Origin: Clostridia bacterium | GTDB taxonomy: Bacteria; Bacillota; Clostridia; Christensenellales; Pumilibacteraceae | Reading direction: 5' to 3' | Assembly (NCBI GenBank): GCA_017623455.1 | Contig: JAGAPA010000014.1 | Location: forward strand, 1-54,302 | DNA length: 54,302 nt | Part shown: in pieces, positions 20,249 through 35,974 of the stretch | How the letters are laid out: each line of letters opens with the position of its first letter | How positions within the stretch are numbered: the stretch's first letter is position 1 | Notes under the pieces: generated by a model | The model's database searches: none | What the model saw: only the letters and a program-made list of their open reading frames with translations | What the model was told of the DNA's origin: nothing | Translations under genes and position numbers: made by a program

Positions 20249-20779
20249 TTAATAATTGTAGCCTGTTTGCAAAGCTTTAATATTTGCTTCAAGCAAGCTT
20301 GCACGCTTTGCAGAAACTACGTGTTTCATGGCCTCGGTCGCACTCTCTAAAGTTACAAGACCCGTTTCCTTAATCATTTTGCCAAGAATAATCATGTTTG
20401 CGAGAGTGGGAGTGCCAAGCTCGTTTGCAAGACGGGTTGCAGGGATGTAGAAAGCGTCTACGTCCTTACGCTCTACCTCTCTTGCAATAAGAGAGCTGTC
20501 TACAAAAATCTTTCCGCCCGAAACGGTATCCTTTTCGTATCTGTCGAGCGAGGGAAGATTCATTGCGATAAGAATGGTGGGCTTGGAAACGATGGGGGAG
20601 CCTACGGGTTCGTCGCTGATGATAACTCCACAGCTTGCAGTACCGCCACGCATTTCGGGTCCGTAGGAGGGAAGCCAGCTAACCTGCTTGTTCTCCTCAA
20701 GTCCCTCGTAAGCAAGGCATTTTCCTGCAAAGAGAACACCCTGTCCGCCAAAGCCTGCGATAAGAATTTCGTTAGTCAT
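20249..20779 (-). CDS. vorC: 2-oxoacid:ferredoxin oxidoreductase, gamma subunit
   Basis: A 176-residue gamma subunit of a 2-oxoacid:ferredoxin oxidoreductase (VOR/KOR type). The family signatures are [18 protein letters not shown] at the N-terminus and [16 protein letters not shown] near residue 40. It pairs with the alpha subunit, and the complex cleaves or forms 2-oxoacids using CoA and ferredoxin in the cytoplasm. It is the last gene of the ilvE operon, starting 3 bp after the beta subunit stop. The branched-chain assignment rests on linkage to ilvE; 2-oxoglutarate is the main alternative. Confidence 0.85.
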
Positions 20780-20782
20780 AGT

Positions 20783-21535
20783 TTAGTCCTCCTTCTTTTG
20801 AGCGCCCTTATCCTTGTATACGCCAAGGGGGTAGTAGGGGATCATATTGGTGTCAACCCATTCAAGAGCCTGAGAGGGAGTCATACCCCAGTTGGTAGGA
20901 CAAGTTGAAACGATTTCAATAAGGGAGAAGCCTTTGCCTTCAACCTGATTCTTAAACGCCTTCAAGATTGCCTTTTTAGCGTTTCTTACGTTCTTAACGT
21001 TGTTTACCGCAACACGCTCGATATAGTAAGGAGCGTCTAAAGCGGAGAGCATTTCGCTTACCTTAATGGGATAGCCTGCAGTCTTTACGTCACGGCCGTA
21101 GGGCGAGGTTTGGGTAACCTGACCGGGGAGAGAGGTGGGAGCCATCTGTCCGCCCGTCATTCCGTAGATTGCGTTGTTAACGAAAATAATGGTAATATTC
21201 TCGTTTCTTGTCGCCGCGTGAACGGTTTCCGCCATACCGATAGAAGCCAAGTCACCGTCGCCTTGATAGGTAAAGATGATATTTTCGGGCATAGCGCGCT
21301 TTAAGCCTGTAGCAACGGCAGGAGCTCTTCCGTGAGCCGCTTCTACCATGTCGCAAGCAAAGTAGTCGTAAGCCATTACCGCGCATCCAACGGGCGCAAC
21401 GCCAACGGTCTTACCTTCAATTCCAAGCTCGTCTATAGCCTCGGCAACTAAACGGTGAATAATTCCGTGCGTACAGCCGGGGCAGTAGTGTAAAGGAGCA
21501 TCCGTCAATGCCTTGGGTTTATCAAAAACTTTCAT
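20783..21535 (-). CDS. vorB: 2-oxoacid:ferredoxin oxidoreductase, thiamine-diphosphate (beta) subunit
   Basis: A 250-residue TPP-binding subunit. It starts with the conserved HYCPGCTHGI (an Fe-S or structural cysteine pair), has a VGCAVMAYDYF segment, the TPP/Mg2+ motif TYQGDGDLASIGM (about 89-101), and a NNAIYGMTGGQMAPTS loop. It binds the 2-oxoacid-derived acyl-TPP intermediate and passes electrons to ferredoxin. Its start is 2 bp beyond the alpha subunit stop, indicating translational coupling. Naming of VOR subunits varies between databases, so the symbol is approximate. Confidence 0.87.
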   Translation of the reverse strand: MKVFDKPKALTDAPLHYCPGCTHGIIHRLVAEAIDELGIEGKTVGVAPVGCAVMAYDYFACDMVEAAHGRAPAVATGLKRAMPENIIFTYQGDGDLASIGMAETVHAATRNENITIIFVNNAIYGMTGGQMAPTSLPGQVTQTSPYGRDVKTAGYPIKVSEMLSALDAPYYIERVAVNNVKNVRNAKKAILKAFKNQVEGKGFSLIEIVSTCPTNWGMTPSQALEWVDTNMIPYYPLGVYKDKGAQKKED

Positions 21536-21537
21536 TG

Positions 21538-22599
21538 TTACTTAACCTCCTTTGCCATATTTTTAATGCTTTCCAAAACCTGTTCGGGAGAGGGGATCAT
21601 ACCGCCCGTACGGTTGCAAAGAACAACGGGACGGGAGCAATCGATAGCAAGTTTTACGTCTTCTATCATCTGTCCCATAGAAAGCTCTACGCTAATAAAG
21701 CCCTTTACGGTTTCAGCTGCTTTTTTAAGTACTGCTTTGGGGAATGGCCAGAGCGTGATGGGGCGGATAAGACCAACCTTGATACCCTGCTTTCTTGCCT
21801 CAACCACGGCGTTTTTGGAAATACGCGAAGCAATACCAAAGGAAACTACGCAGTACTGAGCGTCTTCCATCATAAACTCTTCGTACATAACCTCGTTCTT
21901 TTCAATCTCGGCATATCTTTCATAACGTTCAAAGTTTGTCTGCTCAAGCTTTTCGGGATTGAGGTAGAGCGAGTTTACGATATTGTGCTTTCTTTCGCCC
22001 TTAGTGCCTCTTACCGCCCAAGGCTTTTCAACCTCTTTAACCTCGATGTCGGGAAGAGAAACGGGCTCCATCATCTGACCGAGCGTTCCGTCTGCAAGAA
22101 GCATTGCAGGAACTCTGTACTTATCCGAAAGATCGAAAGACTTGATGGTAAGGTCAGCCATTTCCTGAACGGAGGCAGGAGCAACTACGATAAGACGGTA
22201 GTCGCCGTGTCCGCCACCCTTGGTAGCCTGAAAATAATCGGACTGAGAGGGCTGTATTCCGCCAAGACCGGGGCCTCCACGCTGTACGTTTACGATAAGA
22301 GCGGGAAGGTCTGCGCCTGCTATGTATGAAATACCTTCTTGCTTAAGAGAAATTCCGGGGCTGGACGAGGACGTCATAACTCTATATCCTGCGCCTGCAA
22401 CGCCGTATACCATGTTGATTGCCGAAACTTCGCTTTCAGCTTGTAGGAAAGTTCCGCCTATCTTGGGCATACGTTTTGCCATATATGCCGCGATTTCCGT
22501 TTGGGGAGTAATGGGGTAGCCGAAGTAGTGTCTGCAACCTGCTTTGATTGCAGCCTCAGCGATAGCCTCGTTACCTTTCATTAAAACTTTGTTACTCAT
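21538..22599 (-). CDS. vorA: 2-oxoacid:ferredoxin oxidoreductase, alpha subunit
   Basis: A 353-residue alpha subunit, typically annotated as 3-methyl-2-oxobutanoate dehydrogenase subunit in Clostridia. The N-terminus has GNEAIAEAAIKAGCRHYFGYPITPQ, then the QAESEVSAINMVYGVAGAG and TSSSSPGISLKQEGI core, and GGPGLGGIQPSQSDYFQATKG. In the oxidative direction it yields branched acyl-CoA, CO2 and reduced ferredoxin; in the reductive direction it carboxylates branched acyl-CoA to the 2-oxoacid. It follows the ferredoxin subunit by 8 bp in the same operon. The N-terminal CxH/PIT motif is intact. Confidence 0.87.
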   Translation of the reverse strand: MSNKVLMKGNEAIAEAAIKAGCRHYFGYPITPQTEIAAYMAKRMPKIGGTFLQAESEVSAINMVYGVAGAGYRVMTSSSSPGISLKQEGISYIAGADLPALIVNVQRGGPGLGGIQPSQSDYFQATKGGGHGDYRLIVVAPASVQEMADLTIKSFDLSDKYRVPAMLLADGTLGQMMEPVSLPDIEVKEVEKPWAVRGTKGERKHNIVNSLYLNPEKLEQTNFERYERYAEIEKNEVMYEEFMMEDAQYCVVSFGIASRISKNAVVEARKQGIKVGLIRPITLWPFPKAVLKKAAETVKGFISVELSMGQMIEDVKLAIDCSRPVVLCNRTGGMIPSPEQVLESIKNMAKEVK

Positions 22600-22607
22600 A
22601 ATTCACC

Positions 22608-22814
22608 TCACTTTTCGACAGTAATTACGCAGTCGGGGCACATCGTAGCGCAGAATGCGCAACCAATGCACTTTTCCTGATCGGTAATTTCTGCCGGAGA
22701 ATGACCTTTTGCGTTGATTCTGTCTTTTGCGATAGCCAGAATCTTTTTGGGGCAAGCGTCTATACAAAGACCGCAACCCTTGCAAAGATTGTCGTTAAAA
22801 GTTACCTTTGCCAT
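22608..22814 (-). CDS. vorD: 2x[4Fe-4S] ferredoxin subunit of the 2-oxoacid oxidoreductase
   Basis: A 68-residue ferredoxin-like delta subunit with two cluster motifs, CKGCGLCIDACP and CIGCAFCATMCP. It carries electrons between the TPP subunit and the external ferredoxin. I chose the ATG at 22814 (AAGGAG upstream); the frame continues to 22838, but that would overlap the preceding gene further. The ribosome binding site is inside the end of the P-loop gene. Confidence 0.88.
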   Translation of the reverse strand: MAKVTFNDNLCKGCGLCIDACPKKILAIAKDRINAKGHSPAEITDQEKCIGCAFCATMCPDCVITVEK

Positions 22815-22818
22815 ACTT

Positions 22819-23496
22819 TTATATCTCCTTAATGTCAAAATATTTTTTCTGTAACGTCATTGCGAATTTATCATCCGCCGTATATTGTTTTCCAACCTCT
22901 TCACTTACCGAGGTGAAAAGAATGGGAAGTCCTGTTTTTTTGCTTAGCTCGTCAGCCTTTGCTTTCGTACTCAAAACGTCGTCAGCCTTGGTAAGGTTGC
23001 CAAGATTAGAGTTGTTTACGATAGCTGTAAACTTGATTTTGCACGCGTCCTCTATCTCGCGCATAACCTCTATTGCCGAAGTAACGTCGGGGGTTAAGGG
23101 GCGGAAGAAGTTTACCACGAATACCATTTCGTAATCGTTTTCTTCCTTAATAAAGTTTGCATATCTGCCCAAGGCATACGCGCCTCTGTCATCTCCGCCA
23201 ACGTCTAACACGGCGTAGTAGTTTTTGTCCCACACGAGCGCATAAAGCTGTTGGGGGAGAGCCGGGAGGTCAACGTTGGAGTTTGCAAAAGCAGGAGAAA
23301 TAAGTTCTATGCCTGCCTCGCTCAGTTCCTTTGCGCTGTCCTTGGTACGAAAGTACGGATTGACGATATCCATATCTCCGATTTTTACGGGGTAACCGTT
23401 TTGCTTGATACGTATCGCGTAATTTACGGCAATATTGGTTTTTCCGCTACCGTAATGTCCTGCAAAAATAGTTACGCGTTTTGGCTTTGCGTTCAT
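22819..23496 (-). CDS. P-loop ATPase of the MinD/ParA/CobQ group
   Basis: A 225-residue protein with a Walker A motif GHYGSGKT near residue 13, a DMDIVNPYFR switch-like segment near 42, and an LDVGGDDRG Walker B/switch region near 98. It lacks the deviant second lysine of classic ParA/MinD. Its stop is 5 bp before the ferredoxin ATG, and its ATG overlaps the ilvE stop by one base. This strict coupling suggests a job in assembling or energising the oxidoreductase, for instance Fe-S or cofactor insertion as CooC/Mrp relatives do. That is inference. I know no proven function for it. Confidence 0.7.
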   Translation of the reverse strand: MNAKPKRVTIFAGHYGSGKTNIAVNYAIRIKQNGYPVKIGDMDIVNPYFRTKDSAKELSEAGIELISPAFANSNVDLPALPQQLYALVWDKNYYAVLDVGGDDRGAYALGRYANFIKEENDYEMVFVVNFFRPLTPDVTSAIEVMREIEDACKIKFTAIVNNSNLGNLTKADDVLSTKAKADELSKKTGLPILFTSVSEEVGKQYTADDKFAMTLQKKYFDIKEI

Positions 23497-24566
23497 TAGA
23501 TTTTTACGCTCCAGCCCTTGTTCTCTTCAATCTTGCCCCACTGAATTCCGGTAAGGTTGTCGTAAAGCTTTTGGGTAAGAGGTCCAATCTCGTTGTTAGA
23601 AACGGTGTAGTCCTTGCCGTTGTAGAAAAGGTGTCCGATGGGCGAAACAACAGCCGCTGTTCCCGTTCCCCAAGCCTCTTCCAGCTCGCCTTTTTCGCAA
23701 GCTTCAAACAATTCGTCAACAGAGAAGAGTCTTTCTTCAACTTCGTATCCCCAATCCTTCAATAGCTCTATGCACGACTTTCTGGTAATTCCGGGAAGAA
23801 TAGATCCGCTGAGCATGGGGGTTACGATTTTGCCACCAATTTTGAACATAACGTTCATAGCGCCAACTTCTTCAATATACTTTCTCTCCACGCCGTCAAG
23901 CCACAAAACCTGAGCGTAGCCCTTTTCTTCTGCGCGTTGTCCCGCTCTCATGCTTGCCGCATAGTTTCCGCCACACTTAGCGTAACCCGTTCCGCCTCTT
24001 ACCGCTCTTACGTCCTCGTTTTCGATAGCAATTTTTACGGGCTTAAGACCGGAAGCGTAGTATGCGCCTACGGGCGAGCAAATGATAACGAATACCGCGT
24101 TGTGTACTGCGTGTACGCCAAGGTGAGGATCGTTACCGTAAATGAAGGGACGGATATAAAGCGAAGTTCCCTCGTTGTGGGGTATCCAATCCTGCTCAAG
24201 CTCTACAAGCTTGGTGATAGCGTCGAGCGCGCCCTCTTCGTCAAGAAGGGGAAGACAGATTCTCTCCGCGCTTTTGTTAAGACGCTTAACGTTCTCCATA
24301 GGACGGAAAAGTCTGATAGATCCGTCAACCGCTCTGTATGCTTTCATGCCTTCAAAGATTTCCGCTCCGTAGTGGAAAACGGTGGATGCAGGATGTGTGG
24401 GGATAGGTCCAAAGGGAACTATTCTCGCATCGTGCCATCCCTTTTCTGCGGAATATTCCATAATAAACATATGGTCTGTAAAAATCTTTCCAAATCCAAG
24501 CTTGCTTTCGTCCGTGGGCTTGGGCTGGGGGTTTGCTGTTTTTGTAATGGTGATATCGTATTTCAT
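23496..24566 (-). CDS. ilvE: branched-chain amino acid aminotransferase
   Basis: A 356-residue PLP enzyme of fold type IV, BCAT type II. Diagnostic are HYGAEIFEGMKAYR (about 65-78), YIRPF (about 137-141), the PLP lysine Lys197 in GTGYAKCGGNYAAS, ERKYIEEVGAMNVMF and a C-terminal GTGTAAVVSPI. It interconverts Val, Leu and Ile with their 2-oxoacids. It heads the operon ilvE - P-loop ATPase - ferredoxin - alpha - beta - gamma, so its 2-oxoacids are the obvious substrates or products of the oxidoreductase. GGAGG precedes the ATG. No T-box or attenuator fits in the short leader. Confidence 0.93.
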   Translation of the reverse strand: MKYDITITKTANPQPKPTDESKLGFGKIFTDHMFIMEYSAEKGWHDARIVPFGPIPTHPASTVFHYGAEIFEGMKAYRAVDGSIRLFRPMENVKRLNKSAERICLPLLDEEGALDAITKLVELEQDWIPHNEGTSLYIRPFIYGNDPHLGVHAVHNAVFVIICSPVGAYYASGLKPVKIAIENEDVRAVRGGTGYAKCGGNYAASMRAGQRAEEKGYAQVLWLDGVERKYIEEVGAMNVMFKIGGKIVTPMLSGSILPGITRKSCIELLKDWGYEVEERLFSVDELFEACEKGELEEAWGTGTAAVVSPIGHLFYNGKDYTVSNNEIGPLTQKLYDNLTGIQWGKIEENKGWSVKI

Positions 24567-24589
24567 AATTTGTTTACCTCCTGTAAAAA

Positions 24590-24595
24590 ATTATA
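24590..24595 (-). promoter_or_regulatory. -10 box of the ilvE-vor operon
   Basis: Minus strand TATAAT 24 bp before the ilvE ATG. A good -35 box is not visible. The leader would be about 20 nt, which excludes a long riboswitch. Confidence 0.45.
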
Positions 24596-24644: not shown

Positions 24645-24910
24645 TAGTTGCGCCCACTTCAATTAGTCGTTTCTCTTAGTTGAGTAACAATAATGACGGG
24701 GTTTGCCCTTGGGTTACAATCTTAAGGAATTTAAGTTTCACCCACTCTAATTAGTCGTTTCGTTTAATTGAAGAAACAATAATGACGGTGGGTCTGCCCT
24801 TGGGTTATAATCTTAAGGTGTTTAAGTTGCGCCCATTCTGATTAGCCGTTTCTCTTAGTTGAGTAACAATAATGACGGTGGGTCTGCCCACTGGGTCTGC
24901 CCACTGCGCC
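24645..24910. repeat. tandem ~90-bp repeat, three copies
   Basis: ATTAGTCGTTT/ATTAGCCGTTT marks unit starts at 24662, 24750 and 24841 (88- and 91-bp spacing). Each unit has AACAATAATGACGG, then TGCCC, GGGTTA and TCTTAAGG blocks. The last ends in doubled GGGTCTGCCCACT. The GGGCAGACCC module also occurs at 18525, 42013 and 42260, linking this block to a dispersed repeat family. It lies between the stop of the Val-type ligase and the ilvE promoter. No gene is visible. Confidence 0.75.
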
Positions 24911-24916: not shown

Positions 24917-27214
24917 CTATAGTTTGTTTCTCATAATCTTTCCGCTGGTGGTTTTGGGAAGTTCGTCGCGGAACACAACCACTCTGGGATATTTATAGGG
25001 CGCGGTACGTTGCTTAACGTAATCCTGAACCTCTTTCTTAAGCGCCTCGGTAGGCTCGGTGCCTTTTACAAGCACGATACTTGCCTTAACTATCTGACCT
25101 CTTACCTCGTCGGGCATTGCGGATACACCGCACTCAAGAACGTAGGGAAGTTCCATAATAACGTTTTCGATTTCGAACGGTCCGATACGGTAGCCTGACG
25201 ACTTAATAACGTCGTCCACTCTTCCTACGTACCAGTAATATCCGTCCTCGTCACGCCACGCGGTATCGCCCGTGTGGTACAAGCCGTTTCTTCTTACCTC
25301 GCTCGTCTTTTCCTCGTCCTCAAAGTAGCCTAGCGTTAGTCCGCAAGGGTTGCCTTTGCTGATGTCGATAACAATTTCGCCCACTTCACCAACAGCAACC
25401 GGTTTGTCCTCGCTATTGACAAGTGAGATATTATAAAGCGGAACGGGTTTACCCATAGAGCCAATCTTGGTCTTTGTTCCAAACAGGTTTGCAAGAGCAA
25501 CCGTTGTTTCCGTCTGACCGAAGCCTTCCATAATCTGTAACCCCGTAGCCTTTTCAAACTGTCTGAAAACCTCGGGATTGAGGGCTTCGCCTGCCGTTGT
25601 CATATGCTCGATTGAGGAAAGATCGAAGTTGGAAAGATCCTGCTTTATCATCATACGAAGCATCGTGGGCGGAGCGCAGAACGTAGTGATATGGTATTTT
25701 GCAAACATGGGCAAAATATCGTTTGCGTCAAATCTGTCAAAGTCGTACACGAACAGGGGAGCTTCGCACAGCCACTGTCCGTAAATCTTACCCCAGGCAG
25801 CTTTTGCCCAGCCGGTGTCGGAGATTGAAAGATGCAATCCGTCGGGGTTTACGCAGTGCCAGTATTTTGCGGTGATAAAGTGACCAAGTGGATACTTGTA
25901 GTTGTGCATAGCAACCTTGGGATTGCCGGTAGTTCCCGACGTAAAGTACATAAGCATCAAATCGTCACCCTTGGGAGAATCTTCCGTTCTTTCAAACTTA
26001 CTTGAATACAAGGTGTATTCCTCGTCAAAGTTTCTCCAACCCTTTCTTTCGCCGTTTACAATAATTTTATGTTCAAGACAGGGAGCGAACTCGCTGGCCT
26101 TGTCCACCTCGTTTGCAACGTCGCCGTCAGCGGTACAAAGAATCATCTTGACGCCTGCTTTGTTAAGACGGTACGTAATATCGTGTTCTTTAAGTTGGTT
26201 AGTGGCAGGGATCGCAACTGCGCCTATTTTATGAAGTGCTACCATTGCAAACCAGAACTGATAGTGACGCTTAAGGATAAGCATAACCTTGTCGCCCTTT
26301 TTTATACCGAGCGATTTGAAGTAGTTTGCCGTCTTTGCCGACATTTTCTTGATATCGGAGAAAGTGAAGCGTCTTTCCGTTTTGTCGTTGGAAATATGCA
26401 AAAGCGCAAGCTTGTCCGGATGAGCTGTAGCCAACGCGTCTATTACGTCAAAGCCGAAGTTGAACTCGTTCTCGTTGGTAAAGGCAATCTTTTGAATTTG
26501 ACCTTGCTCGTTTTCGGTGGGAACGACGAAGTTATTCCATACACGCTTGGGTTCGGGCTTCTTGTTGTGCTTTTTGACCGCAATAAATTCTCTTGCACCG
26601 CCGTGTACGAGCTTAGATATTGGCTCGGACGCAGGGTTGAGGACTATAGCGTAAAAGATACAGTCGGCACCGCCCGTCGCGATCATTCCGTGAGGAGTGG
26701 AGGAGTCGTAGTAAATACTGTCGCCCTCGCCCAAAATCTCCACGTGGTCGCCCACCTGAACCTTAAGAGTTCCCTTTACAACGATATCACATTCCTGTCC
26801 CTCGTGTGTGGTAAGCTCGATGTCCGCATTCTGAGCGCTTTCGTCGTAGTCCGAAATAACGTACAATGGTTCTGCAATACGGTTCTTAAAAGCGGAGGCA
26901 AGATTGTAGTAAGTCATGCCGTGTGCTTTCTGAATCTGCTGACCTTCGCCTTTTCTTGTTACCGTGTAGCCTGCAAGTCGGGGTCCGGTACCTTCGATAA
27001 TTTCAGTAACGTCTACCCCAAGCGCGAGAGCGCAACGGTATAAGAATGCGAAGTTAAGGTCGGATTTTCCGCTTTCGCAGTCCAAGTAATCCTGTAAACT
27101 GACTCCGGTCTTGTTTGCCATATCCATTGTAGTAAGACCGATAATTTCACGCAAAGTTTTAATTCTTTGCGCCATTTCCTGAATTTTAAATTCAAGACCT
27201 GTTGCTGTTTGCAT
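24917..27214 (-). CDS. XRE-cupin-acyl-CoA ligase fusion, behind a valine-type T-box
   Basis: A 765-residue fusion. An XRE helix-turn-helix (about 14-75) is followed by a cupin (about 134-192, with DSSTPHGMI) and an AMP-forming acyl-CoA synthetase (about 235-765). Ligase motifs are FTSGTTGNPK (424-433), GFGQTE (564-569), YHTGD (646-650), GYRIGPFEIE and the catalytic lysine in KTTSGKIMRNKL (Lys759). The ligase part is closest in style to ACSM/short-branched acyl-CoA synthetases. It would convert an acid plus ATP and CoA to acyl-CoA. I chose ATG 27214 (GGAGG); the longer frame runs into the T-box terminator. The T-box specifier predicts Val-tRNA control, so isobutyrate is the inferred substrate. 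It is a close paralogue of the gene at 27674-29944. Confidence 0.85.
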   Translation of the reverse strand: MQTATGLEFKIQEMAQRIKTLREIIGLTTMDMANKTGVSLQDYLDCESGKSDLNFAFLYRCALALGVDVTEIIEGTGPRLAGYTVTRKGEGQQIQKAHGMTYYNLASAFKNRIAEPLYVISDYDESAQNADIELTTHEGQECDIVVKGTLKVQVGDHVEILGEGDSIYYDSSTPHGMIATGGADCIFYAIVLNPASEPISKLVHGGAREFIAVKKHNKKPEPKRVWNNFVVPTENEQGQIQKIAFTNENEFNFGFDVIDALATAHPDKLALLHISNDKTERRFTFSDIKKMSAKTANYFKSLGIKKGDKVMLILKRHYQFWFAMVALHKIGAVAIPATNQLKEHDITYRLNKAGVKMILCTADGDVANEVDKASEFAPCLEHKIIVNGERKGWRNFDEEYTLYSSKFERTEDSPKGDDLMLMYFTSGTTGNPKVAMHNYKYPLGHFITAKYWHCVNPDGLHLSISDTGWAKAAWGKIYGQWLCEAPLFVYDFDRFDANDILPMFAKYHITTFCAPPTMLRMMIKQDLSNFDLSSIEHMTTAGEALNPEVFRQFEKATGLQIMEGFGQTETTVALANLFGTKTKIGSMGKPVPLYNISLVNSEDKPVAVGEVGEIVIDISKGNPCGLTLGYFEDEEKTSEVRRNGLYHTGDTAWRDEDGYYWYVGRVDDVIKSSGYRIGPFEIENVIMELPYVLECGVSAMPDEVRGQIVKASIVLVKGTEPTEALKKEVQDYVKQRTAPYKYPRVVVFRDELPKTTSGKIMRNKL

Positions 27215-27243: not shown

Positions 27244-27517
27244 AAAAACTCGCCCCAAACGATAAAATCCTTTGAGACGAGTATCTAATACCCGCGGTAC
27301 CACTCAAATTGTACGCTTAATTTTGCGTACCACTTTCAGGCTCTGACAAGCCGTATGCCTTAACGCAGCAATCACGAGGAAGGTCTACTTGGAAAAATTT
27401 CTTTTCTTCTTCCCTGCTCAGAAGTTACATCAAACGCTTTTGCGTAGCGGTTTTCACCGTTTCCGCCTCTCTGTAACGCAATTTTGCGCGGTTGAACTCT
27501 TCGTCTATGCATTTGTA
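27244..27517 (-). promoter_or_regulatory. T-box riboswitch, predicted specifier GUA (Val)
   Basis: The minus-strand leader has an AGAGAG Stem I start (27467-27472), and ACTTCTGAGC preceded by the predicted specifier GUA (27426-27428). The T-box antiterminator GTGGTACCGCGG lies at 27292-27303, followed by a terminator with arms ACTCGTCTCAAA / TTTGGGGCGAGT and a T-run (27244-27282). UGGU in the T-box bulge fits an A73 discriminator, as in tRNA-Val. Uncharged tRNA should allow read-through into the ligase gene. Confidence 0.88.
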
Positions 27518-27523: not shown

Positions 27524-27552
27524 ATTATAGCATACTAGTTAAATCTTGTCAA
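27524..27552 (-). promoter_or_regulatory. consensus promoter of the Val-type T-box transcript
   Basis: Minus strand TTGACA (27547-27552), 17-bp spacer, TATAAT (27524-27529). Confidence 0.85.
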
Positions 27553-27673: not shown

Positions 27674-29944
27674 TTAAAGTTTGTTTCTCTGGATTTTTCC
27701 GCTGATTGTTTTGGGAAGTTCGTCCTTAAACACTACCACTCTGGGGTATTTGTAAGGCGCAGTATGGGATTTAACGTAATTCTGAATTTCTTTCTTAAGC
27801 TCTTCGGTAGGCTCGGTGCCTTTGGTAAGAACGATGCTTGCTTTTACGATCTGTCCGCGAATTTCGTCCGGAACGGCGGATACACCGCACTCTACAACGT
27901 AGGGAAGTTCCATAATAACGCTTTCGATCTCAAACGGTCCAATGCGGTAGCCTGACGACTTGATTACGTCGTCTATACGGCTGACGTACCAAAAATATCC
28001 GTCCTCGTCTTTCCAAGCGGTATCTCCCGTATGATACATTCCGTCGTACCAAGCTTCGTTTGTTTTTTCCTCGTCAAGATAGTATTCTCTGAACAGTCCG
28101 CAAGGCACGTTTTTGTCGGTATGAACAACAATTTCTCCAACTTCACCGGGAGCAACCGAATTGCCCTCGCTGTCTACGATATCAATATCATATTGGGGCG
28201 AAGCCTTACCCATAGATCCGATCTTGGGAGTAGTACCGTAAAGATTTGCTATGGTAAGAGTAGTTTCGGTCTGACCGAAGCCTTCCATTATTTCAAGACC
28301 CGTTGCCGCCTTAAACTGCTTGAATACTTCGGGGTTGAGCGCCTCGCCTGCCGTGGTCATGTGGTGGATAGAGGACAGGTCGAACTTGGACAGGTCGCCT
28401 CTTATGAGCATACGGAGCATTGTGGGTGGAGCGCAGAACGTAGTGATCTGGTATTTAGCGAACATGGGAAGGATTTCGTTTTCGTCAAACTTGTCGAAGT
28501 CATACACGAATACCGCGCCTTCGCAAAGCCACTGTCCGTAAAGCTTACCCCACAAAGATTTGCCCCAACCTGTGTCGGAGATGGTAAGATGTAAGCCGTC
28601 GCGCTCACAGCAATGCCAATATTTAGCGGTTACAAAATGACCGAGCGCGTAGGTGTGCTTATGCGCTGCCATTTTGGGATTTCCCGTAGTTCCGGAAGTA
28701 AAGAACATAAGAGCAACGTCGTCACCGCACGAAGCGTCTTCGGGACGAACGAAACGACGCGAGAAGAACTTGTATTCTTCGTCAAAGTCGTGCCAGCCCT
28801 CTTTCTTTCCGCCAACTAAAATGTGGGTCTGTACGGTAGGACACTTGAGAGATGCGGCGTATGCAATATCCGAAACGTCACCGTCGGCTGTACAAACGAT
28901 TGCCTTTACGCCTGCAGCGTTGTAGCGATATTCAAAGTCGTGTTCTTTGAGCTGATTGGTAGCAGGGATTGCAACAGCGCCTATTTTATGAAGGGCTACC
29001 ATTGCAAACCAGAACTGATAATGACGTTTGAGAACGAGCATAACCTTATCACCGCGCTTGATGCCCAAAGATGCAAAATAGTTTGCGGTTTGGTTACTTG
29101 CGTCCTTGATATCCTTGAAGGTAAATCTTCTCTCGTTTTTATGCTTGTCAAGATGCAACATTGCAAGTTTATCGGGATACGTACGTGCGATTTGGTCAAC
29201 AATGTCAAAACCGAAGTTGAACGAATCGGTGTTTTCAAACGTGATACTTTCAAGCTTTCCGTCTTCGCTTTCCACGGGTTTTACAAACTTTTCGCAAATG
29301 AGTTTTTCCTGACTTCTTGCCGTGATGATAGTACGCTGAACGATGTCTTCCTTAGTATCCTCGCCTGCGATAACTACCGCGCAGAAGGTACAATCCTTAC
29401 CGTCTACCGCAATCATTCCGTGAGGAGTGGAAGAATCGTAGTAAATACTGTCGCCCTCGTGAAGCACCTCGGTGTGATTGCCAACCTGAACTTTAAGTGT
29501 TCCGCTAAGAACAAGGTCGAACTCGTGTCCGCTGTGAGTGGTAACGTGAATGGGCTTGTTTTGAAGTGAAGCCGAATATTCGTACGTTACGTAATAAGGC
29601 TGAGCCAATTTATTACGGAACTTGGAAGCAAGGTTCTGAATGGTTATACCGTCCTCTTTAGCAGTGGTAAGACCCTGACCTTTTCTGGTTACCGTATAGT
29701 TGGTAAGGCGTGTAGCTCTACCCTCCAATAATTCCGTCATTTCAATATTGAAAGCAAGCGAACATTTGTGAATAAATGTAAAGGGAATGTCCGCTTTTCC
29801 GCTTTCGTAAGCGTTGTAAAGCTCGGTAGAAACGTCGGTTTTTACCGCCATTTCATCTTCGGTCCAGCCCATAATTTCACGCATTTCTCTTATACGTGTT
29901 GCGATATCCGATAATCTGCGCATAGAATTGTTTTGGTTGTTCAT
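27674..29944 (-). CDS. XRE-cupin-acyl-CoA ligase fusion, behind an isoleucine-type T-box
   Basis: A 756-residue paralogue of the previous fusion with the same order: XRE domain (about 15-75), cupin (about 130-190, DSSTPHGMI), and AMP-forming ligase with FTSGTTGNPK, GFGQTE, YHTGD, GYRIGPFEIE and the C-terminal KTISGKIQRNKL lysine. The ligase halves are very similar (long identical stretches such as LKRHYQFWFAMVALHKIGAV), while the N-terminal halves differ more. That suggests duplication followed by change in sensing or DNA specificity. GGAG lies before the ATG. The T-box upstream predicts Ile-tRNA control, so 2-methylbutyrate is the inferred acid. Its transcript may read into the Val-type unit, as no clear terminator lies between them. 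Confidence 0.85.
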   Translation of the reverse strand: MNNQNNSMRRLSDIATRIREMREIMGWTEDEMAVKTDVSTELYNAYESGKADIPFTFIHKCSLAFNIEMTELLEGRATRLTNYTVTRKGQGLTTAKEDGITIQNLASKFRNKLAQPYYVTYEYSASLQNKPIHVTTHSGHEFDLVLSGTLKVQVGNHTEVLHEGDSIYYDSSTPHGMIAVDGKDCTFCAVVIAGEDTKEDIVQRTIITARSQEKLICEKFVKPVESEDGKLESITFENTDSFNFGFDIVDQIARTYPDKLAMLHLDKHKNERRFTFKDIKDASNQTANYFASLGIKRGDKVMLVLKRHYQFWFAMVALHKIGAVAIPATNQLKEHDFEYRYNAAGVKAIVCTADGDVSDIAYAASLKCPTVQTHILVGGKKEGWHDFDEEYKFFSRRFVRPEDASCGDDVALMFFTSGTTGNPKMAAHKHTYALGHFVTAKYWHCCERDGLHLTISDTGWGKSLWGKLYGQWLCEGAVFVYDFDKFDENEILPMFAKYQITTFCAPPTMLRMLIRGDLSKFDLSSIHHMTTAGEALNPEVFKQFKAATGLEIMEGFGQTETTLTIANLYGTTPKIGSMGKASPQYDIDIVDSEGNSVAPGEVGEIVVHTDKNVPCGLFREYYLDEEKTNEAWYDGMYHTGDTAWKDEDGYFWYVSRIDDVIKSSGYRIGPFEIESVIMELPYVVECGVSAVPDEIRGQIVKASIVLTKGTEPTEELKKEIQNYVKSHTAPYKYPRVVVFKDELPKTISGKIQRNKL

Positions 29945-29992: not shown

Positions 29993-30262
29993 AAAAAAAT
30001 TCGCCTCAAAAAACTTTGAGACGAATTATAAAAATCCGTGGTACCACTCAAATTGCGTAAATTTTTTACGCCACTTCAGGCTCCAACAAGCCCTATGCAC
30101 TAACGTAGCAATCACGTAAGCCTCTACTCGCTTTCGCTTTCAAAACTTCAGCTCGGAAGTGATAGGATTGTTCGAAGTTCGTTTGTCGGCTTTCACCGTT
30201 CCCGACTCTCTGTAAAACTCACATTCGACTCCGTCTTCGTCGTAGCCTTTGATTAAATTGAT
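29993..30262 (-). promoter_or_regulatory. T-box riboswitch, predicted specifier AUC (Ile)
   Basis: AGAGAG opens Stem I. ACTTCCGAGC follows the predicted specifier AUC (30161-30163). The T-box is GTGGTACCACGG (30036-30047), and the terminator arms AATTCGTCTCAAA / TTTGAGGCGAATT are followed by a T-run (29993-30027). The T-box has CACGG where the usual sequence is CGCGG. The UGGU bulge suits A73 of tRNA-Ile. Confidence 0.87.
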
Positions 30263-30268: not shown

Positions 30269-30297
30269 ATTATAGCACCGCATTTCGCACTTGTCAA
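30269..30297 (-). promoter_or_regulatory. consensus promoter of the Ile-type T-box transcript
   Basis: Minus strand TTGACA (30292-30297), 17-bp spacer, TATAAT (30269-30274). Confidence 0.85.
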
Positions 30298-30826: not shown

Positions 30827-31693
30827 ATGGGCAAATTAGATATTATTAAAATTATATCCGAAAAACGTTGTATTATCGGCGAGGGTCCGATTTGGAACGA
30901 GTGTGAAAACACGCTGTATTTTACTAACGGAATGGGCGGTGAGATTTGCTCGTATAATTTTACTAATGATAAGCTGAGCGTAAGACCGCTTCCGTTTTCG
31001 GTTTCGGCGTTTGCTTTTGACAAACAAAACCGTTTGATTGTATCGAATGTAAATGGCGTGCATTTTCTCAATTCAGATAATACGTTATCGCCTATTTATG
31101 ACCAAAATACAAAAATAGAGTATGCAAACGATATGAAAGTGGGCCCGGATGGCGCGATATACGTGGGAACTCAAAGCGGAAAAAGAAAGGGTGTTTCGGA
31201 TAAGGTTGACGGCAAGCTGTATAGAATTGCGCCGAGTGGAGAAGTTGAAATCCTACTCGATAATTTAATTTTGTCAAACGGTATGGAGTGGTCGATAGAT
31301 GAGAAAAAATTCTATCACACCGATAGTGATACGAGAATAATAAAGGAATATGATTTCGACAGATCTACCGGGAAAATAAGTTATACAGGCAGAGAGGTTT
31401 ATATAAGGGGAGTGGACGGATTTACTATTGGTCAAGACAATAATTTATACGTTGCTTGTTGGGGACAAGGTCATATCGCCGTTATTGATACTCAGACGTT
31501 GCAGATAAAAGAGTTTATCGACGTACCGTGTCGTATTCCTGCAAGCTGTGGCTTTTGCGGAAAGGATATGGGCGTTCTTGCAATAACCACCGCAAGCTAT
31601 CACGCTGATATGGATAACGATAAAAACGCAGGCTTTACGGTTTTGGCTAAAATGCAAATAAAGGGAAGGCTTCCTTATATTTTTGCAAAATAA
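30827..31693 (+). CDS. SMP-30/gluconolactonase-family protein
   Basis: A 288-residue six-bladed beta-propeller of the SMP-30/gluconolactonase/LRE group. The metal-site residues are visible: Glu in IGEGPIW (about 18-20), Asn in LSNGMEWS (about 150) and Asp in GVDGFTIG (about 200). Family members are Ca2+ or Zn2+-dependent lactonases acting on sugar lactones. I chose ATG 30827, with TGGAG upstream; the frame is open from 30764 but begins inside the promoter. No signal peptide is seen, so it is cytoplasmic. No sugar pathway gene adjoins it, and the physiological lactone is unknown. Confidence 0.8.
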   Translation: MGKLDIIKIISEKRCIIGEGPIWNECENTLYFTNGMGGEICSYNFTNDKLSVRPLPFSVSAFAFDKQNRLIVSNVNGVHFLNSDNTLSPIYDQNTKIEYANDMKVGPDGAIYVGTQSGKRKGVSDKVDGKLYRIAPSGEVEILLDNLILSNGMEWSIDEKKFYHTDSDTRIIKEYDFDRSTGKISYTGREVYIRGVDGFTIGQDNNLYVACWGQGHIAVIDTQTLQIKEFIDVPCRIPASCGFCGKDMGVLAITTASYHADMDNDKNAGFTVLAKMQIKGRLPYIFAK

Positions 31694-31719
31694 TCCGTTA
31701 TATACAGTTTATTAAAATA

Positions 31720-31757
31720 AAAAATTCGACTTAGGGTTTAATCCAAGCCGAATTTTT
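31720..31757. terminator. bidirectional terminator
   Basis: Arms AAATTCG-CTT-GG and CC-AAG-CGAATTT with small bulges, flanked by A- and T-tracts. It ends the SMP-30 gene and the convergent ligase operon. Confidence 0.75.
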
Positions 31758-31762
31758 ATTTT

Positions 31763-34219
31763 TTACTTTTTAAGTCCAAGCATTTCTTCTGACTGTTCTT
31801 TCATCTTGTACTTCAGGATTTTGCCTGCAGCGTTCATGGGGAACTCTTTAACAAATACGATGTATCTTGGAACTTTGTGTAAAGCCATATGCGCTTTACC
31901 GTAGTTCTTCATTTCTTCTTCGTTACTTTCCATGCCCTCGTGGAGAATAATCCAAGCGCAAGCCTCTTCGCCGTATCTTTCGTCCGCAACTCCTACAACC
32001 TGAACGTCGCGCACTTTTTCGTGAGTTAAGTAAAACTCTTCGATCTCTCTGGGATACAAGTTTTCTCCACCGCGGATAATCATATCCTTAAGACGTCCCG
32101 TAATCTTGTAGTAGCCGTCTTCGGTCTTGCAGGCAAGGTCGCCACTATGAAGCCAGCCGTCAGCGTCAATAGTCTGAGCTGTAGCTTTGGGCATTTTGTA
32201 GTAGCCTTTCATTATATTAAAGCCACGTGCTACAAACTCGCCGTTCTCTCCTGCAGGAAGTTCTTCGCCCGTTTCGGGGTCGATAATCTTGCACTCAACG
32301 CCGGGGAATGCGCTACCAACCGTTTCCACTCTGTGGTCGATGTCTTCGTTAACCTCGCCCATAGTACAGCCCGGCGATGCTTCGGTCTGTCCGTAAACGG
32401 AAAGGATCTCTTTCATGTTCATTTCATCCGCCGCTCTTCTCATAAGGTCTGCAGGACAGTTCGCGCCTGCCATAATACCCGTACGCATATACGAAAAGTC
32501 GGTTTTAGCAAAGTCTTCGTGATTGAACATTGCGATAAACATCGTGGGGACGCCGTTAAAGCAGGTTATCTTTTCCGCGTTGATGCACGCAAGAGAGGAC
32601 TTGGGACTAAAGTACGGCATAGGACATACCGTTCCGCCGTGAGTCATAAGGTTGGTCATGGAAAGTACCATACCAAAGCAGTGGAACATGGGTACTTGAA
32701 TCATCATTCTGTCAGCTGTGGATATATCCATTCTGTCACCGATGGTCTTGCCGTTGTTGATGATATTGCGGTGAGTGAGCATAACGCCTTTAGGGAAGCC
32801 CGTTGTTCCCGACGTGTACTGCATGTTACATACGTCGTCAGGCTTTACTTCGGACGCTCTTCTTCTTACTTCTTCTTTAGGAACAAACGCTGAGCGAAGT
32901 AACATTTCGTCCCATTCCAAGCAACCGTCCATCTTAAAGCCTACCGTTACGACGTTGCGAAGGAAGGGAAGCTTTTTGGAGTAAAGCGGAGCGCCGGGAT
33001 TAAGCGTTTTAAGCTCGGGGCAAAGCTCTTCGATAATTGCTTTGTAGTCGGAGTCCTTACAGCTGTCTATCATAACGAGCGTGTGAGTGTCGGACTGACG
33101 GAGCAGGTATTCGGTTTCGTGAATTTTGTACGCGGTATTAACCGTTACGAGTACCGCGCCAATCTTTACCGTTGCCCAAAACGTTATGAACCATTGGGGA
33201 ATATTTGTTGCCCAAATAGCAACGTGATGTCCGGCCTTTACGCCAAGTGAGATAAGAGCCGCTGCCGTTCTGTCTACGTCGTCGCGGAACTGCGAGTACG
33301 TTCTCGTATAATCCAAAGTAGTGTACTTGAAGGCGTACTGATCGGGATAGTAGTCTACCATAGTATCGAGAACCTGAGAAAAAGTAAGGTCCAAAATATC
33401 GTATTTTTTCCAAGGGAAAGTTCCCGTTTTGCTTCTGTTGTAGTATACGGGACGGGCGGATTTACGGGAAGGGGTAACGGATGCGATAAAACGGGTGAAG
33501 TGTGTAAGCACTATATCTTCGTCGTCAATCTCGTCGTTCCACAGCGCGCAAACGTATCCGTCGTAGTTGAGAGAACGAAGCGCGTTGATGAAGTCCGCAA
33601 CGGGCAGATCGCCTTCGCCGATAAGACAGTTTATGCCGTCTTTTCTGTCGCCGATAAGTACGTAATTGATGTACGCGCCCAAGGTCTGAATAGTAGTGTC
33701 TGCGTTCTCTCCGCCCACGAAGAACGTTTCTCTTACGTTCCAGGCAACACCGAGTGCAGAAGATGCGAAAATGTTCAGAATGTCGATAACGTTCTGCGTA
33801 TTTGCGTACTTTCCGCTCGTTTCGATGAGGATAATTATACCTGCTTTTTCCGCTTTTTTTACAAGAGGAGTAAGAGAGGAAACGATAGTTTCAACGTCTG
33901 AGTTATCGTCGAGAGATACCACGAGGTTTTCAATCTGCGCGGTTGCGCAAAGCTCAATAAAGTCGTTTGCGTTTTCAAAGTCTGTGTTTTCGTTTATTTT
34001 TTCGGGGAAAGCAATTGCGCTGATTCCGATATGGCGGTTGACAAGCTTGCGCTTTGCGCCTGCTGTGTTACTTGAATGGAATATACTGTCTTTATGTTGC
34101 GCCTTTTCCTTTTTCGCGTCGTAAATTTCAAAGCCGTCGAAGCCGTATTCCTTTACTTTGTTACAAAGCGAGAGGAAGGACTGCGCGCAAACGTGTTTAG
34201 TGGAGAATACAAGTTTCAT
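31763..34219 (-). CDS. TIM-barrel (sugar isomerase/AP-endonuclease-2 type)-acyl-CoA ligase fusion
   Basis: An 818-residue fusion. Residues 1-250 resemble a xylose-isomerase/AP-endonuclease-2-like TIM barrel (MKLVFSTKHVCAQSFLSLCNK start; EYGFDGFEIYDA; LIETSGKYANTQNV; ISAIAFP). Residues 265-815 form an AMP-forming acyl-CoA synthetase with YTSGTTGFPKGVMLTH (468-483), YGQTEASP, WLHSGD and a C-terminal NAAGKILKYKMKE lysine. The ligase is a different subfamily from the two XRE-cupin ligases, closer to medium-chain fatty-acid ligases. The gene starts 2 bp past the LeuA-like stop, so it is translationally coupled and shares the Leu-type T-box. Isovalerate is the inferred substrate. I know no described role for the barrel here. 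Confidence 0.8.
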   Translation of the reverse strand: MKLVFSTKHVCAQSFLSLCNKVKEYGFDGFEIYDAKKEKAQHKDSIFHSSNTAGAKRKLVNRHIGISAIAFPEKINENTDFENANDFIELCATAQIENLVVSLDDNSDVETIVSSLTPLVKKAEKAGIIILIETSGKYANTQNVIDILNIFASSALGVAWNVRETFFVGGENADTTIQTLGAYINYVLIGDRKDGINCLIGEGDLPVADFINALRSLNYDGYVCALWNDEIDDEDIVLTHFTRFIASVTPSRKSARPVYYNRSKTGTFPWKKYDILDLTFSQVLDTMVDYYPDQYAFKYTTLDYTRTYSQFRDDVDRTAAALISLGVKAGHHVAIWATNIPQWFITFWATVKIGAVLVTVNTAYKIHETEYLLRQSDTHTLVMIDSCKDSDYKAIIEELCPELKTLNPGAPLYSKKLPFLRNVVTVGFKMDGCLEWDEMLLRSAFVPKEEVRRRASEVKPDDVCNMQYTSGTTGFPKGVMLTHRNIINNGKTIGDRMDISTADRMMIQVPMFHCFGMVLSMTNLMTHGGTVCPMPYFSPKSSLACINAEKITCFNGVPTMFIAMFNHEDFAKTDFSYMRTGIMAGANCPADLMRRAADEMNMKEILSVYGQTEASPGCTMGEVNEDIDHRVETVGSAFPGVECKIIDPETGEELPAGENGEFVARGFNIMKGYYKMPKATAQTIDADGWLHSGDLACKTEDGYYKITGRLKDMIIRGGENLYPREIEEFYLTHEKVRDVQVVGVADERYGEEACAWIILHEGMESNEEEMKNYGKAHMALHKVPRYIVFVKEFPMNAAGKILKYKMKEQSEEMLGLKK

Positions 34220-34221
34220 AG

Positions 34222-35592
34222 TTAGTTCTCCTCGTATACGATTTTGTTAAGAGCGTTAACGTATGCTCTGATACATGCGCCGATAATATCCGTGGATACG
34301 CCGTTGCCCGAGTACAGCTTGCCGTTTGCAATAAGGCGGATAAGAGAGGAAGCCGCAGCCTCTCTGCCTTTGGTGATAGATTGGATTTGGAAATCGTCAA
34401 GCTCGTAGTGATGTCCGATAATCTGTTCGATTGCGTGGAAAGCCGCGTCAACAGGACCGTCGCCTGCACTTACGCCAATAAGCTTTTCACCGTCCTTTTC
34501 AAGCGTAACGCTTGCGGTTGCGGTAATAATGTTTCCGCTGTTTACAACGTAGTTTACAAGATGGAAGGTGGAGGGGACTTGCATTGCGGTGCTTGCCACG
34601 ATTGCGTCAAGCTCGCGGGAGGCAATACTGCCCTTTCTTTCGCTTACGCGCCTGAACTCTTCGTAAACTTTGCCGTTGTCCTCGTCCGAAAGCTCGTAGC
34701 CAAGAGCCTTGATCTTTTCGATAATGTCGGTAAAGGTTGCCGATGCGTCAATGGTTTCGCCGTCGTTTTTGGACGACTTAACTTCTTCCGTGTTGTCGGT
34801 AATTGTCGATACCGTATTGTGGATTGCCGTGCAATCGAGGTTGCTCTCAACCCCCATATCGTCGCCCTTTGTTCTGATAAGGTCTGCAAACTTATCGGGG
34901 CGCATTCCGTCGCCGTCCGTTGCCGTCTTAACGCCTTGTGCGCCTACGGACAACGCTATGCAAGCGCATGCGCAAGCAAGGGAGATCTTGTCTGAAGTTG
35001 CAACGTACACCTTAGCGGTAGGAACTGCTTCGATAACCTCTTTAACCAGCGCGGAGAATTCACAGGGGAGAGATATGCCGGCATCGTCGCATACGGTAAT
35101 CTCGCTCGCGCCGTTTTCTACCGCCGTTTTTGCACACTGAGCAACGAAGCCTTTTTCAGCTCTCGTTGCGTCGGTTGCCACAAACTCTACCGCATAGCCC
35201 GTTTCGCTTGCCTTTTTAGTGATGGAAGCGATTTTGTCGAGCATCTTGGGCGCTTTTAAGTGGTAGGTGTATTCCATAACCACGGTGGATGTGGGCATAA
35301 TAACCTGCAATACTGCGTTTTTAGCGTTCTTTGCCATTTCGGTTGCCGCAGTAAACGATTCGTCGGTAAAGCCAACGGGTATTCTTACCTGACAGTTTTT
35401 TACCGATTGGATAATAGTGCGGTAAACAACCGCGTCCTCCTTGGATAGGGATAGGGTGGGCAGTTCGATAGCGTCAACGCCGGTTTTTACGATAGCATCG
35501 CAAATAGCCAATTTTTCCTTAAAAGAAACGGACTTTTTAAGCTCTTCGGTTTTAGCTCTGAGTGTTACGTCTGATACGAATAATTTTTTCAT
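34222..35592 (-). CDS. LeuA-like protein with lost metal ligands (probable pseudoenzyme)
   Basis: A 456-residue relative of 2-isopropylmalate synthase. Residues 1-270 follow the LeuA barrel (SDVTLRAKTEE where LeuA has DTTLRDGEQ; GVDAIELPTL; VEFVATDATRA; VCDDAGISLPCEF). The active site is changed: the Asp after the catalytic Arg is Ala, the metal-binding HxH is Ala-Thr-Ser (VYVATSDKISLA), the EDA glutamate is Thr, and the NGIGERAGN loop is DGDGMRPDK. The C-terminal LeuA_dimer domain (about 325-450) looks intact and normally binds leucine. It probably does not make isopropylmalate. A leucine sensor or altered catalyst is possible. GAAGGGAAAAGG precedes the ATG. The gene is controlled by the Leu-type T-box and is coupled to the ligase fusion. 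Confidence 0.8.
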   Translation of the reverse strand: MKKLFVSDVTLRAKTEELKKSVSFKEKLAICDAIVKTGVDAIELPTLSLSKEDAVVYRTIIQSVKNCQVRIPVGFTDESFTAATEMAKNAKNAVLQVIMPTSTVVMEYTYHLKAPKMLDKIASITKKASETGYAVEFVATDATRAEKGFVAQCAKTAVENGASEITVCDDAGISLPCEFSALVKEVIEAVPTAKVYVATSDKISLACACACIALSVGAQGVKTATDGDGMRPDKFADLIRTKGDDMGVESNLDCTAIHNTVSTITDNTEEVKSSKNDGETIDASATFTDIIEKIKALGYELSDEDNGKVYEEFRRVSERKGSIASRELDAIVASTAMQVPSTFHLVNYVVNSGNIITATASVTLEKDGEKLIGVSAGDGPVDAAFHAIEQIIGHHYELDDFQIQSITKGREAAASSLIRLIANGKLYSGNGVSTDIIGACIRAYVNALNKIVYEEN

Positions 35593-35667
35593 AATATACC
35601 TGCCTTTTCCCTTCAGGGGATAATATAATGTGTCTTAATGCTGATTTTTGCCGTTGTAGTAGCGGAA

Positions 35668-35939
35668 TAAAAAAATCCGCAGAGCAAAATATGCACTCTG
35701 CGGGACGATTAACAAAAATAACCGCGGTACCACCCGTATTGCTCTTAGTTTTAAGAGCCACTTATCGGATACTAACATATCCTTGACCTGTAACGGGATC
35801 GCCCGTGATTCCTTACTGTTATTTTCCGGAACCCTGCTCCGATACGAGACAAAACAAACGTCGTCTGCCGTTTCACACCAACCAACGGCTCTCTGATAGC
35901 CCGAAATGCTTGTTTTTAATATCATCATCGCATTTAATA
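35668..35939 (-). promoter_or_regulatory. T-box riboswitch, predicted specifier CUC (Leu)
   Basis: AGAGAG opens Stem I. Aligned with the other two leaders, CUC (35846-35848) precedes GTATCGGAGC. The T-box is GGGTGGTACCGCGG (35722-35735), and the terminator arms CCGCAGAG / CTCTGCGG are followed by ATTTTTTT (35668-35703). The UGGU bulge suits A73 of tRNA-Leu. Confidence 0.88.
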
Positions 35940-35945
35940 ATCGGT

Positions 35946-35974
35946 ATTTTAACACTTTTGGCAAGTGTTGTCAA
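35946..35974 (-). promoter_or_regulatory. promoter of the Leu-type T-box transcript
   Basis: Minus strand TTGACA (35969-35974), 17-bp spacer, TAAAAT (35946-35951). ACACTT and AAGTGT in the spacer form a short inverted repeat. Confidence 0.8.

Follow-up and report, generated by a model that had tools for sequence, protein, structure and literature searches.

Rumen bacteria have been reported to convert isovalerate to leucine, 2-methylbutyrate to isoleucine and isobutyrate to valine (PMC7356843, referencing Allison, Robinson et al. 1962-1971), and titles cited in the same article name branched volatile fatty acids as growth factors for ruminococci. Here we describe a gene array in a 54,302-nucleotide stretch of DNA from an uncultured Clostridia bacterium (contig JAGAPA010000014.1; the whole stretch is called the window), which is very probably the main route of valine, isoleucine and leucine supply in an anaerobe without the usual pathway. 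A reductive salvage that starts from isobutyrate, 2-methylbutyrate and isovalerate is well supported as its function. Substrates, products and overall chemistry as proposed for the array are those of the rumen reaction, a precedent that an earlier reading of the window from its sequence alone (the sequence-only reading) had rightly named. The rumen work, judged by its titles, was done on cultures, whereas the array is a full gene set with one ligase per amino acid and transfer RNA (tRNA) control, found in uncultured Clostridia.

The three leaders of the array share with the RF00230 T-boxes of Firmicutes their architecture, specifier, terminator and downstream amino-acid supply genes. They differ in their targets, which are salvage acyl-coenzyme A (acyl-CoA) ligases, and in that three specifiers split one common pathway at its entry. 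The terms "acyl-CoA" and "CoA ligase" are absent from the main text of one T-box survey (PMC2494555), such targets go unmentioned in the accessible text of another (PMC3766115), and a limited literature search for T-boxes with these acids or with acyl-CoA synthetases gave nothing on point. The sequence-only reading had likewise considered separate T-box control of each ligase to be undescribed. Within these limited searches, the gene set, the per-ligase T-boxes and the dead LeuA described below are undescribed.

Two of the ligases carry a domain homologous to MbcS (448 bits) and MacsMa (623 bits to PDB entry 3etc), for which branched short acids are expected; they differ from both enzymes in a helix-turn-helix (HTH)-cupin fusion, in T-box control, in occurring as isoleucine and valine paralogues and in an MbcS score under the family cut-off. 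The leucine unit opens with a paralogue of LeuA that retains the HMGL barrel and the LeuA_dimer allosteric domain of that enzyme. This dead LeuA differs from LeuA in its lost catalytic and metal residues, in its ligase partner and in that no LeuB over cut-off was found in the carriers tested. HisZ, a dead paralogue of the enzyme HisRS, is a parallel. In HisZ-HisGS, histidine exerts its end-product inhibition through a separate regulatory protein (PMC9734150), so a regulator of the dead-LeuA kind can exist; here, by analogy so far, a dead biosynthetic enzyme would control the ligase of a different pathway. A T-box before leuA itself is known in Geobacter and Pelobacter (PMC2494555). The chemistry of the array is old; its gene set is newly seen, its regulatory wiring new and its dead enzyme unexpected. 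It offers a concrete gene set for the rumen-type conversion of branched acids to amino acids, and a means of recognising from a genome that its owner cross-feeds on isobutyrate, 2-methylbutyrate and isovalerate.

The array and its three T-box leaders

The array runs from position 35974 down to 20249, on the minus strand throughout; three transcription units start in it, and one gene set is shared among them. Unit 1 (leucine) comprises the LeuA-like gene and a TIM-barrel/acyl-CoA-ligase fusion (TIM-ligase), unit 2 (isoleucine) a single HTH-cupin-ligase, and unit 3 (valine) a second HTH-cupin-ligase followed by the branched-chain aminotransferase IlvE, a P-loop protein, a ferredoxin and three subunits of VOR, a 2-oxoacid:ferredoxin oxidoreductase. 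The source genome (G000) is a 2.40 Mb draft, 77.6% complete, and the window lies within its contig 36. The features are as follows.

35946..35974, minus strand: leucine-unit promoter, TTGACA-17-TGnTAAAAT, 11/12 consensus positions
35698..35937, minus strand: leucine T-box leader, specifier CUC (Rfam RF00230, 121.6 bits)
35677..35703, minus strand: intrinsic terminator of the leucine T-box (terminator scan)
34222..35592, minus strand: dead LeuA paralogue, its HMGL barrel lacking HxH and GERxGN, LeuA_dimer intact
31763..34219, minus strand: TIM-barrel (AP_endonuc_2)/adenosine monophosphate (AMP)-forming acyl-CoA ligase fusion, candidate isovaleryl-CoA ligase
30269..30297, minus strand: isoleucine-unit promoter, TTGACA-17-TGnTATAAT, 12/12 consensus positions
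30014..30252, minus strand: isoleucine T-box leader, specifier AUC (Rfam RF00230, 101.4 bits)
29998..30027, minus strand: intrinsic terminator of the isoleucine T-box (terminator scan)
27674..29944, minus strand: HTH-cupin-acyl-CoA ligase, candidate 2-methylbutyryl-CoA ligase (MbcS 448.6 bits; PDB 3etc 623 bits)
27524..27552, minus strand: valine-unit promoter, TTGACA-17-TGnTATAAT, 12/12 consensus positions
27270..27516, minus strand: valine T-box leader, specifier GUA (Rfam RF00230, 96.1 bits)
27249..27281, minus strand: terminator hairpin of the valine T-box, 11 pairs, loop of 11, T-run (read from the sequence)
24917..27214, minus strand: HTH-cupin-acyl-CoA ligase, candidate isobutyryl-CoA ligase (MbcS 435.8 bits)
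23496..24566, minus strand: IlvE branched-chain aminotransferase (NF009897, 478.2 bits, cut-off 307)
22819..23496, minus strand: P-loop nucleoside triphosphatase (NTPase), NUBPL/ParA-like (20.9 bits, below the cut-off of 27.1)
22608..22814, minus strand: 2x[4Fe-4S] ferredoxin, probable VOR delta subunit (from the translation)
21538..22599, minus strand: VorB, alpha subunit (NF005507, 563.4 bits, cut-off 399)
20783..21535, minus strand: VOR thiamine-pyrophosphate-binding (beta) subunit (TPP_enzyme_C, 76.8 bits)
20249..20779, minus strand: VOR gamma subunit (POR, 124.5 bits)

IlvE, a full VOR and three acyl-CoA ligase units in one locus, as the sequence-only reading had described, are thus all present. 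Its predicted valine, isoleucine and leucine specifiers also proved right, and each unit in the window does have a T-box of its own. The three ligases are there too, but the leucine unit opens with dead LeuA and not with a ligase; this gene, the HTH-cupin domains, the TIM barrel of the leucine ligase and that ligase's different family had been missed.

All three window leaders exceed the RF00230 gathering score of 93 bits. The specifiers, taken from the Rfam alignment as the codon ahead of the closing helix, are CUC, AUC and GUA, and direct reading agrees. An extended -10 promoter and a terminator frame each leader; the valine terminator was read by hand, since its loop of 11 exceeds what the terminator scan allows. 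To follow the leaders in relatives, we used the best 80 of 575 relatives of the isoleucine ligase, and read specifiers strictly (helix, 5' partner and GAGC all required) in genes preceded by 330 bases or more. A T-box motif was seen before 20 of 22 dead LeuA genes, 76 of 78 isoleucine ligase genes and all 51 valine ligase genes. Strict reading gave CTC in 13/13 leucine leaders and ATC in 46/46 isoleucine leaders; among 39 valine leaders, 36 read GTA, 2 GTC and 1 GGT, the last (L092) being judged a parsing error and retained in the count. In the leaders that could not be read strictly, the expected codon was among the candidates of a relaxed reading in 5/7 (leucine), 24/30 (isoleucine) and 9/12 (valine). 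The motif was not found upstream of the within-unit genes for TIM-ligase (0/22), P-loop protein (0/47) and VorB (0/47), and preceded IlvE in 1/42 cases, that one lacking a readable specifier.

We considered chance T-boxes and rejected them on the Rfam scores, the conservation and the promoters: 13 of 20 leucine leaders of relatives had a promoter with at least 11/12 consensus positions, against 5 of 725 random pieces. Folding one leader did not help (z -1.15); the T-box evidence is that of the covariance model. The sensitivity of the gathering score is low: six loci searched whole with Rfam gave 10 of 18 expected leaders, 20 loci elsewhere gave 8 leaders, and a mixed set of 20 sources, many of which are something other than fused ligases, gave 2 matches. 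By eye, no HTH operator common to the promoter flanks was seen in the flanks inspected (22/57 isoleucine, 22/38 valine, 13/13 leucine).

The proposed route would begin with isobutyrate, 2-methylbutyrate and isovalerate, which would be waste from the amino-acid fermentation of other microbes. The three ligases would convert the branched acids to CoA esters, the common VOR would carboxylate these to 2-oxoacids with reduced ferredoxin and CO2, and the common IlvE would transaminate the 2-oxoacids to valine, isoleucine and leucine. Each unit would be controlled by a constitutive-looking promoter followed by a T-box. We infer both the direction of VOR and the control in the cell, including a response of these leaders to their uncharged cognate tRNA: uncharged tRNA-Val, tRNA-Ile or tRNA-Leu would cause the leader to anti-terminate, so allowing synthesis of the ligase that serves the amino acid in short supply. 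At the protein level, end products may be sensed by dead LeuA in the leucine unit and by the HTH-cupin domains in the isoleucine and valine units.

In the window, alpha, beta, gamma and ferredoxin make up the VOR complex; the order of alpha, beta and gamma, the three subunits searched in relatives, is kept there. No minus-strand promoter was found by the promoter scan between the valine ligase and IlvE, so the IlvE-VOR genes are probably transcribed from the valine unit. The gap from the valine ligase to the next gene in relatives has a median of 18 bases where that gene is the P-loop gene (31 loci) and 24 where it is IlvE (15 loci). The same interval in the window holds a tandem repeat (24646-24889, period 91, 2.7 copies); in the sister locus L037 this interval is only about 27 bases long. 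The valine ligase starts at ATG 27214, preceded by AAGGAGG; the listed start, 27307, falls inside the valine T-box. The P-loop NTPase gene (22819-23496) is retained in 47 of the 80 loci, adjoining VorB.

Loss of the usual pathway and direction of the route

We compared 121 relatives, including the own genome, of which 15 have a full-length fused ligase. In nine of them the fused ligases stand side by side (the tandem-pair genomes G000, G001, G111, G084, G081, G064, G082, G115 and G088). Over cut-off, ilvC was found in 0/9 tandem-pair genomes and 54/112 others (Fisher p 0.004), ilvB in 0/9 and 52/112 (p 0.010), leuB in 0/9 and 58/112 (p 0.003) and ilvD in 1/9 and 60/112 (p 0.017). VorB was over cut-off in all nine, and in 57/121 genomes overall. 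In the own genome and its sister G001 (94% complete), ilvB and ilvD gave no match and ilvC and leuB nothing above 30 bits, which bears out the sequence-only reading, for which absence of the usual genes would support the idea. Many gut Clostridia without the usual genes carry such an operon and appear to rebuild valine, isoleucine and leucine from branched fatty acids that other microbes leave behind, in most cases with a T-box of its own ahead of the ligase for each amino acid.

The complete set of three leaders occurs in G000 and, via locus L037, in G001. G111, G084, G081, G064 and G082 have an Rfam T-box (E <= 0.01) before both the isoleucine and the valine ligase; of their leucine leaders, those in the 80-loci set were read. 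Among the other genomes with fused ligases, a T-box (GTA) is present in G113, a weak match was seen in G033 (56 bits) and a weaker one in G085 (39 bits), and none was found within 1.5 kb upstream of the fused ligase in G021, G079 and G108.

A number of observations weigh against this array being the main supply route. The Fisher values are too optimistic, because the genomes are related and the rows not independent, and the own genome is only 77.6% complete. ilvC is present in 5 of the 50 genomes behind other loci that were checked for it (50 of the 80 loci genomes, three of them apparently the same as G001, G111 and G084), and G021 and G085 also carry it; each of these two has one full-length fused ligase with no good T-box upstream. 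The tandem-pair genome G064 has ilvD over cut-off, and matches under cut-off occur for ilvD (G111, 572 bits; G060, 476), leuB (G084, 265 bits; G088, 135) and ilvB (G082, 220 bits; G084, 180). The rule of one T-box per ligase, which holds in the window, is not universal among relatives: G115 (L014) has a single isoleucine T-box (ATC) ahead of both ligases, the valine ligase following about 30 bases past the isoleucine ligase with no T-box between them, and in G088 (L015) neither the 1.5 kb ahead of the ligase pair nor the space between the two yielded a T-box. As to the ligases, both HTH-cupin proteins score under the curated cut-off of 850 of their top family, MbcS, and thus fall outside its membership, and the isovalerate role of the leucine ligase is suggested solely by its T-box and its neighbouring gene. 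Finally, VOR and IlvE are reversible.

Both enzymes also serve amino-acid fermentation in many anaerobes, and the operon could be imagined in reverse, with valine, isoleucine and leucine transaminated and then oxidised by VOR to branched acyl-CoAs or acids for energy or redox. T-boxes, however, turn on with uncharged tRNA, which is the wrong sign for breakdown; AMP-forming ligases cost adenosine triphosphate; and ilvB, ilvC and leuB over cut-off are missing from all nine tandem-pair genomes. On the T-box sign and the missing genes we rejected the breakdown direction, to which we give very little credence, and the same two points support the supply of amino acids favoured by the sequence-only reading.

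The ligases, dead LeuA and proposed sensors

The isoleucine and valine ligases consist of N-terminal HTH and cupin domains fused to an AMP-forming ligase. The closest PDB match of the isoleucine ligase is 3etc (623 bits), the Methanosarcina acetivorans enzyme MacsMa, which is reported to favour 2-methylbutyrate (PMC10455477). The top NCBIfam family of both ligases is MbcS (NF047394; 448.6 and 435.8 bits), an enzyme described as selective for 2-methylbutyrate and isobutyrate and poor with isovalerate (PMC10026030). The leucine ligase has a different top family, PRK12583 (671.6 bits, cut-off 832), which fits because MbcS handles isovalerate poorly. The family split of the ligases fits the three acids, and the candidate substrates are isobutyrate for the valine ligase and 2-methylbutyrate for the isoleucine ligase. 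The kinship with MbcS, which primes branched-chain membrane fatty acids in Staphylococcus aureus, could also mean that the ligases have this role here. We think this most improbable: the scores are far under the MbcS cut-off, three separate amino-acid T-boxes precede the units, and the nine array genes searched include IlvE and VOR and no fatty-acid synthesis gene.

At the 90% level, 15 of 16 fixed differences between isoleucine and valine ligases lie within the HTH-cupin part. At a 75% threshold (34 loci with both full genes) the share is 28 of 69; a divergence confined to the sensor part is not claimed, as the ligase domains differ too. There was no sign of gene conversion between the two paralogues. 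We propose that the HTH-cupin domains are end-product sensors.

The LeuA-like protein of the leucine unit combines an HMGL barrel with LeuA_dimer (PF08502, 105.7 bits), the feedback domain of known LeuA (PMC11057210). It scores 228.5 bits against TIGR00973 (LeuA), whose cut-off is 598.7, and so falls outside that family. The window protein lacks the HxH metal pair, GERxGN and TLRDGEQ, and the same motifs are lost in relatives, in 21 loci and in nine relatives' genomes (three being the same as loci); in a tenth genome with dead LeuA, G064, the gene is cut by the contig end. All three motifs are kept in 10/10 real LeuA of other relatives. Mean pairwise identity in dead LeuA (22 sequences) is 0.41 for the barrel and 0.71 for the leucine domain, the reverse of real LeuA (10 sequences; 0.60 and 0.44), with domain bounds slightly different between the two sets. 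High conservation of the leucine domain with low conservation of the barrel is read as selection for leucine binding without catalysis. In G000 and its sister G001, dead LeuA is the sole LeuA_dimer protein.

The TIM-ligase directly follows dead LeuA in 22 of 23 loci, with a median gap of 9 bases; the exception, L050, is truncated where the locus ends. Its N-terminal TIM domain has an identity of 0.52 and its ligase part one of 0.85 (first 15 of 18 aligned). We propose that dead LeuA would be a regulatory subunit and leucine sensor. Tentatively, and at somewhat less than even weight, we extend this to two control layers on each ligase, a tRNA-reading T-box and a recruited protein sensor, the latter being dead LeuA ("LeuZ", named after HisZ) throttling isovaleryl-CoA ligase, or the HTH-cupin domains for isoleucine and valine. 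If true, a dead enzyme from a lost pathway persists as the leucine sensor of the replacement pathway, and dead LeuA with its preserved leucine domain would give a clear-cut, testable example of a biosynthetic enzyme that became a sensor.

The LeuA-like protein could instead be a living enzyme and no sensor, with another chemistry or as an active LeuA with moved residues. Its barrel is still significantly similar to solved isopropylmalate synthase structures, and 22 aligned sequences all keep the first metal Asp (D8), though it is unaligned in G115. The loss of all three motifs in the readable dead copies, the constraint on the leucine domain over the barrel and the absence of LeuB over cut-off in tested carriers make this an unlikely account.

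Conservation, specifier codons and tRNAs

The T-box and ligase beside vor, whose conservation the sequence-only reading had put forward as a check, are kept in dozens of loci with conserved gene order. Many records behind the 80 loci have titles that name the gut of goat, sheep, deer, buffalo, yak or cattle as the sample; those of the SIG series name no sample. In a class draw of 391 genomes, 154 have an isoleucine-ligase match at E <= 1e-200, and some of these matches are not fused. Twenty pieces upstream of distant fused ligases (18 genomes) held a T-box at E <= 0.01 in 15 cases, with ATC in 12, GTA in 2 and an unreadable specifier in 1, and none in the other 5. A further 28 loci gave 13 ATC, 13 GTA and 2 unread; several of them had extra candidate codons, and the codon ahead of the conserved helix was taken.

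A maximum-likelihood tree was built from 49 proteins: the two of the window, 28 from the class and order loci, and 19 picked by locus number from the strictly read ones among the 80 loci. It spans at least 16 families (rows of known family, own family included). Isoleucine- and valine-specified ligases split once, with support of 100/100, and a single label change is needed, as against about 17 with shuffled labels. Codon and ligase paralogue have stayed together across the sampled families, and the T-box codon is therefore a substrate label for unassigned acyl-CoA ligases, from which one may predict the amino acid that each ligase serves.

The isoleucine ligase was found without other array genes in 26 of the 80 loci (L040, L049, L052, L053, L054 and others); some of these have full 10 kb flanks, so that this ligase can stand alone. 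In L014 (G115) and L015 (G088) the isoleucine and valine ligases are 20-30 bases apart. In the more distant relatives L022, L023, L026 and L028 (about 48% identity) the match spans HTH-cupin and ligase with one in-frame stop, as if two adjoining genes. L026, whose genome is a single contig, is preceded by a T-box-like stretch under the Rfam gathering score, and ATC is one of the codons that could be its specifier.

As the specifiers need, tRNA-Ile(GAU) was found in the own genome and in the sister, and tRNA-Val(UAC) in the sister; among the subset of tRNA genes examined in the own genome there was no tRNA-Val. Both genomes gave the leucine isoacceptors UAA and AAG, to which the own genome adds CAG and UAG and the sister CAA. 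No tRNA-Leu(GAG) was among the genes examined in either (a subset of those listed), and CUC may for that reason be decoded by tRNA-Leu(AAG), whose position 34 would presumably be inosine. tRNA-Leu(AAG) also occurs in G060, G064 and the genomes of L079 and L101, and a tRNA-Leu(GAG) gene in G081, G088 and the genome of L087. The leucine codon CUC is kept despite this AAG versus GAG difference between genomes (L174, L188-L191, L194; window T-box 35937-35698).

Elsewhere in the source genome, two genes that look TrpB2-like by eye each have their own T-box, L003 (G000:C29:40521-40766) and L006 (G000:C57:6588-6846), both with TGG (tryptophan) at the specifier place. This pair would fit a salvage of indole to tryptophan by the same logic. 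A further T-box, L001 (G000:C67:7646-7877), lies between two tandem genes resembling aspartyl-tRNA synthetases.

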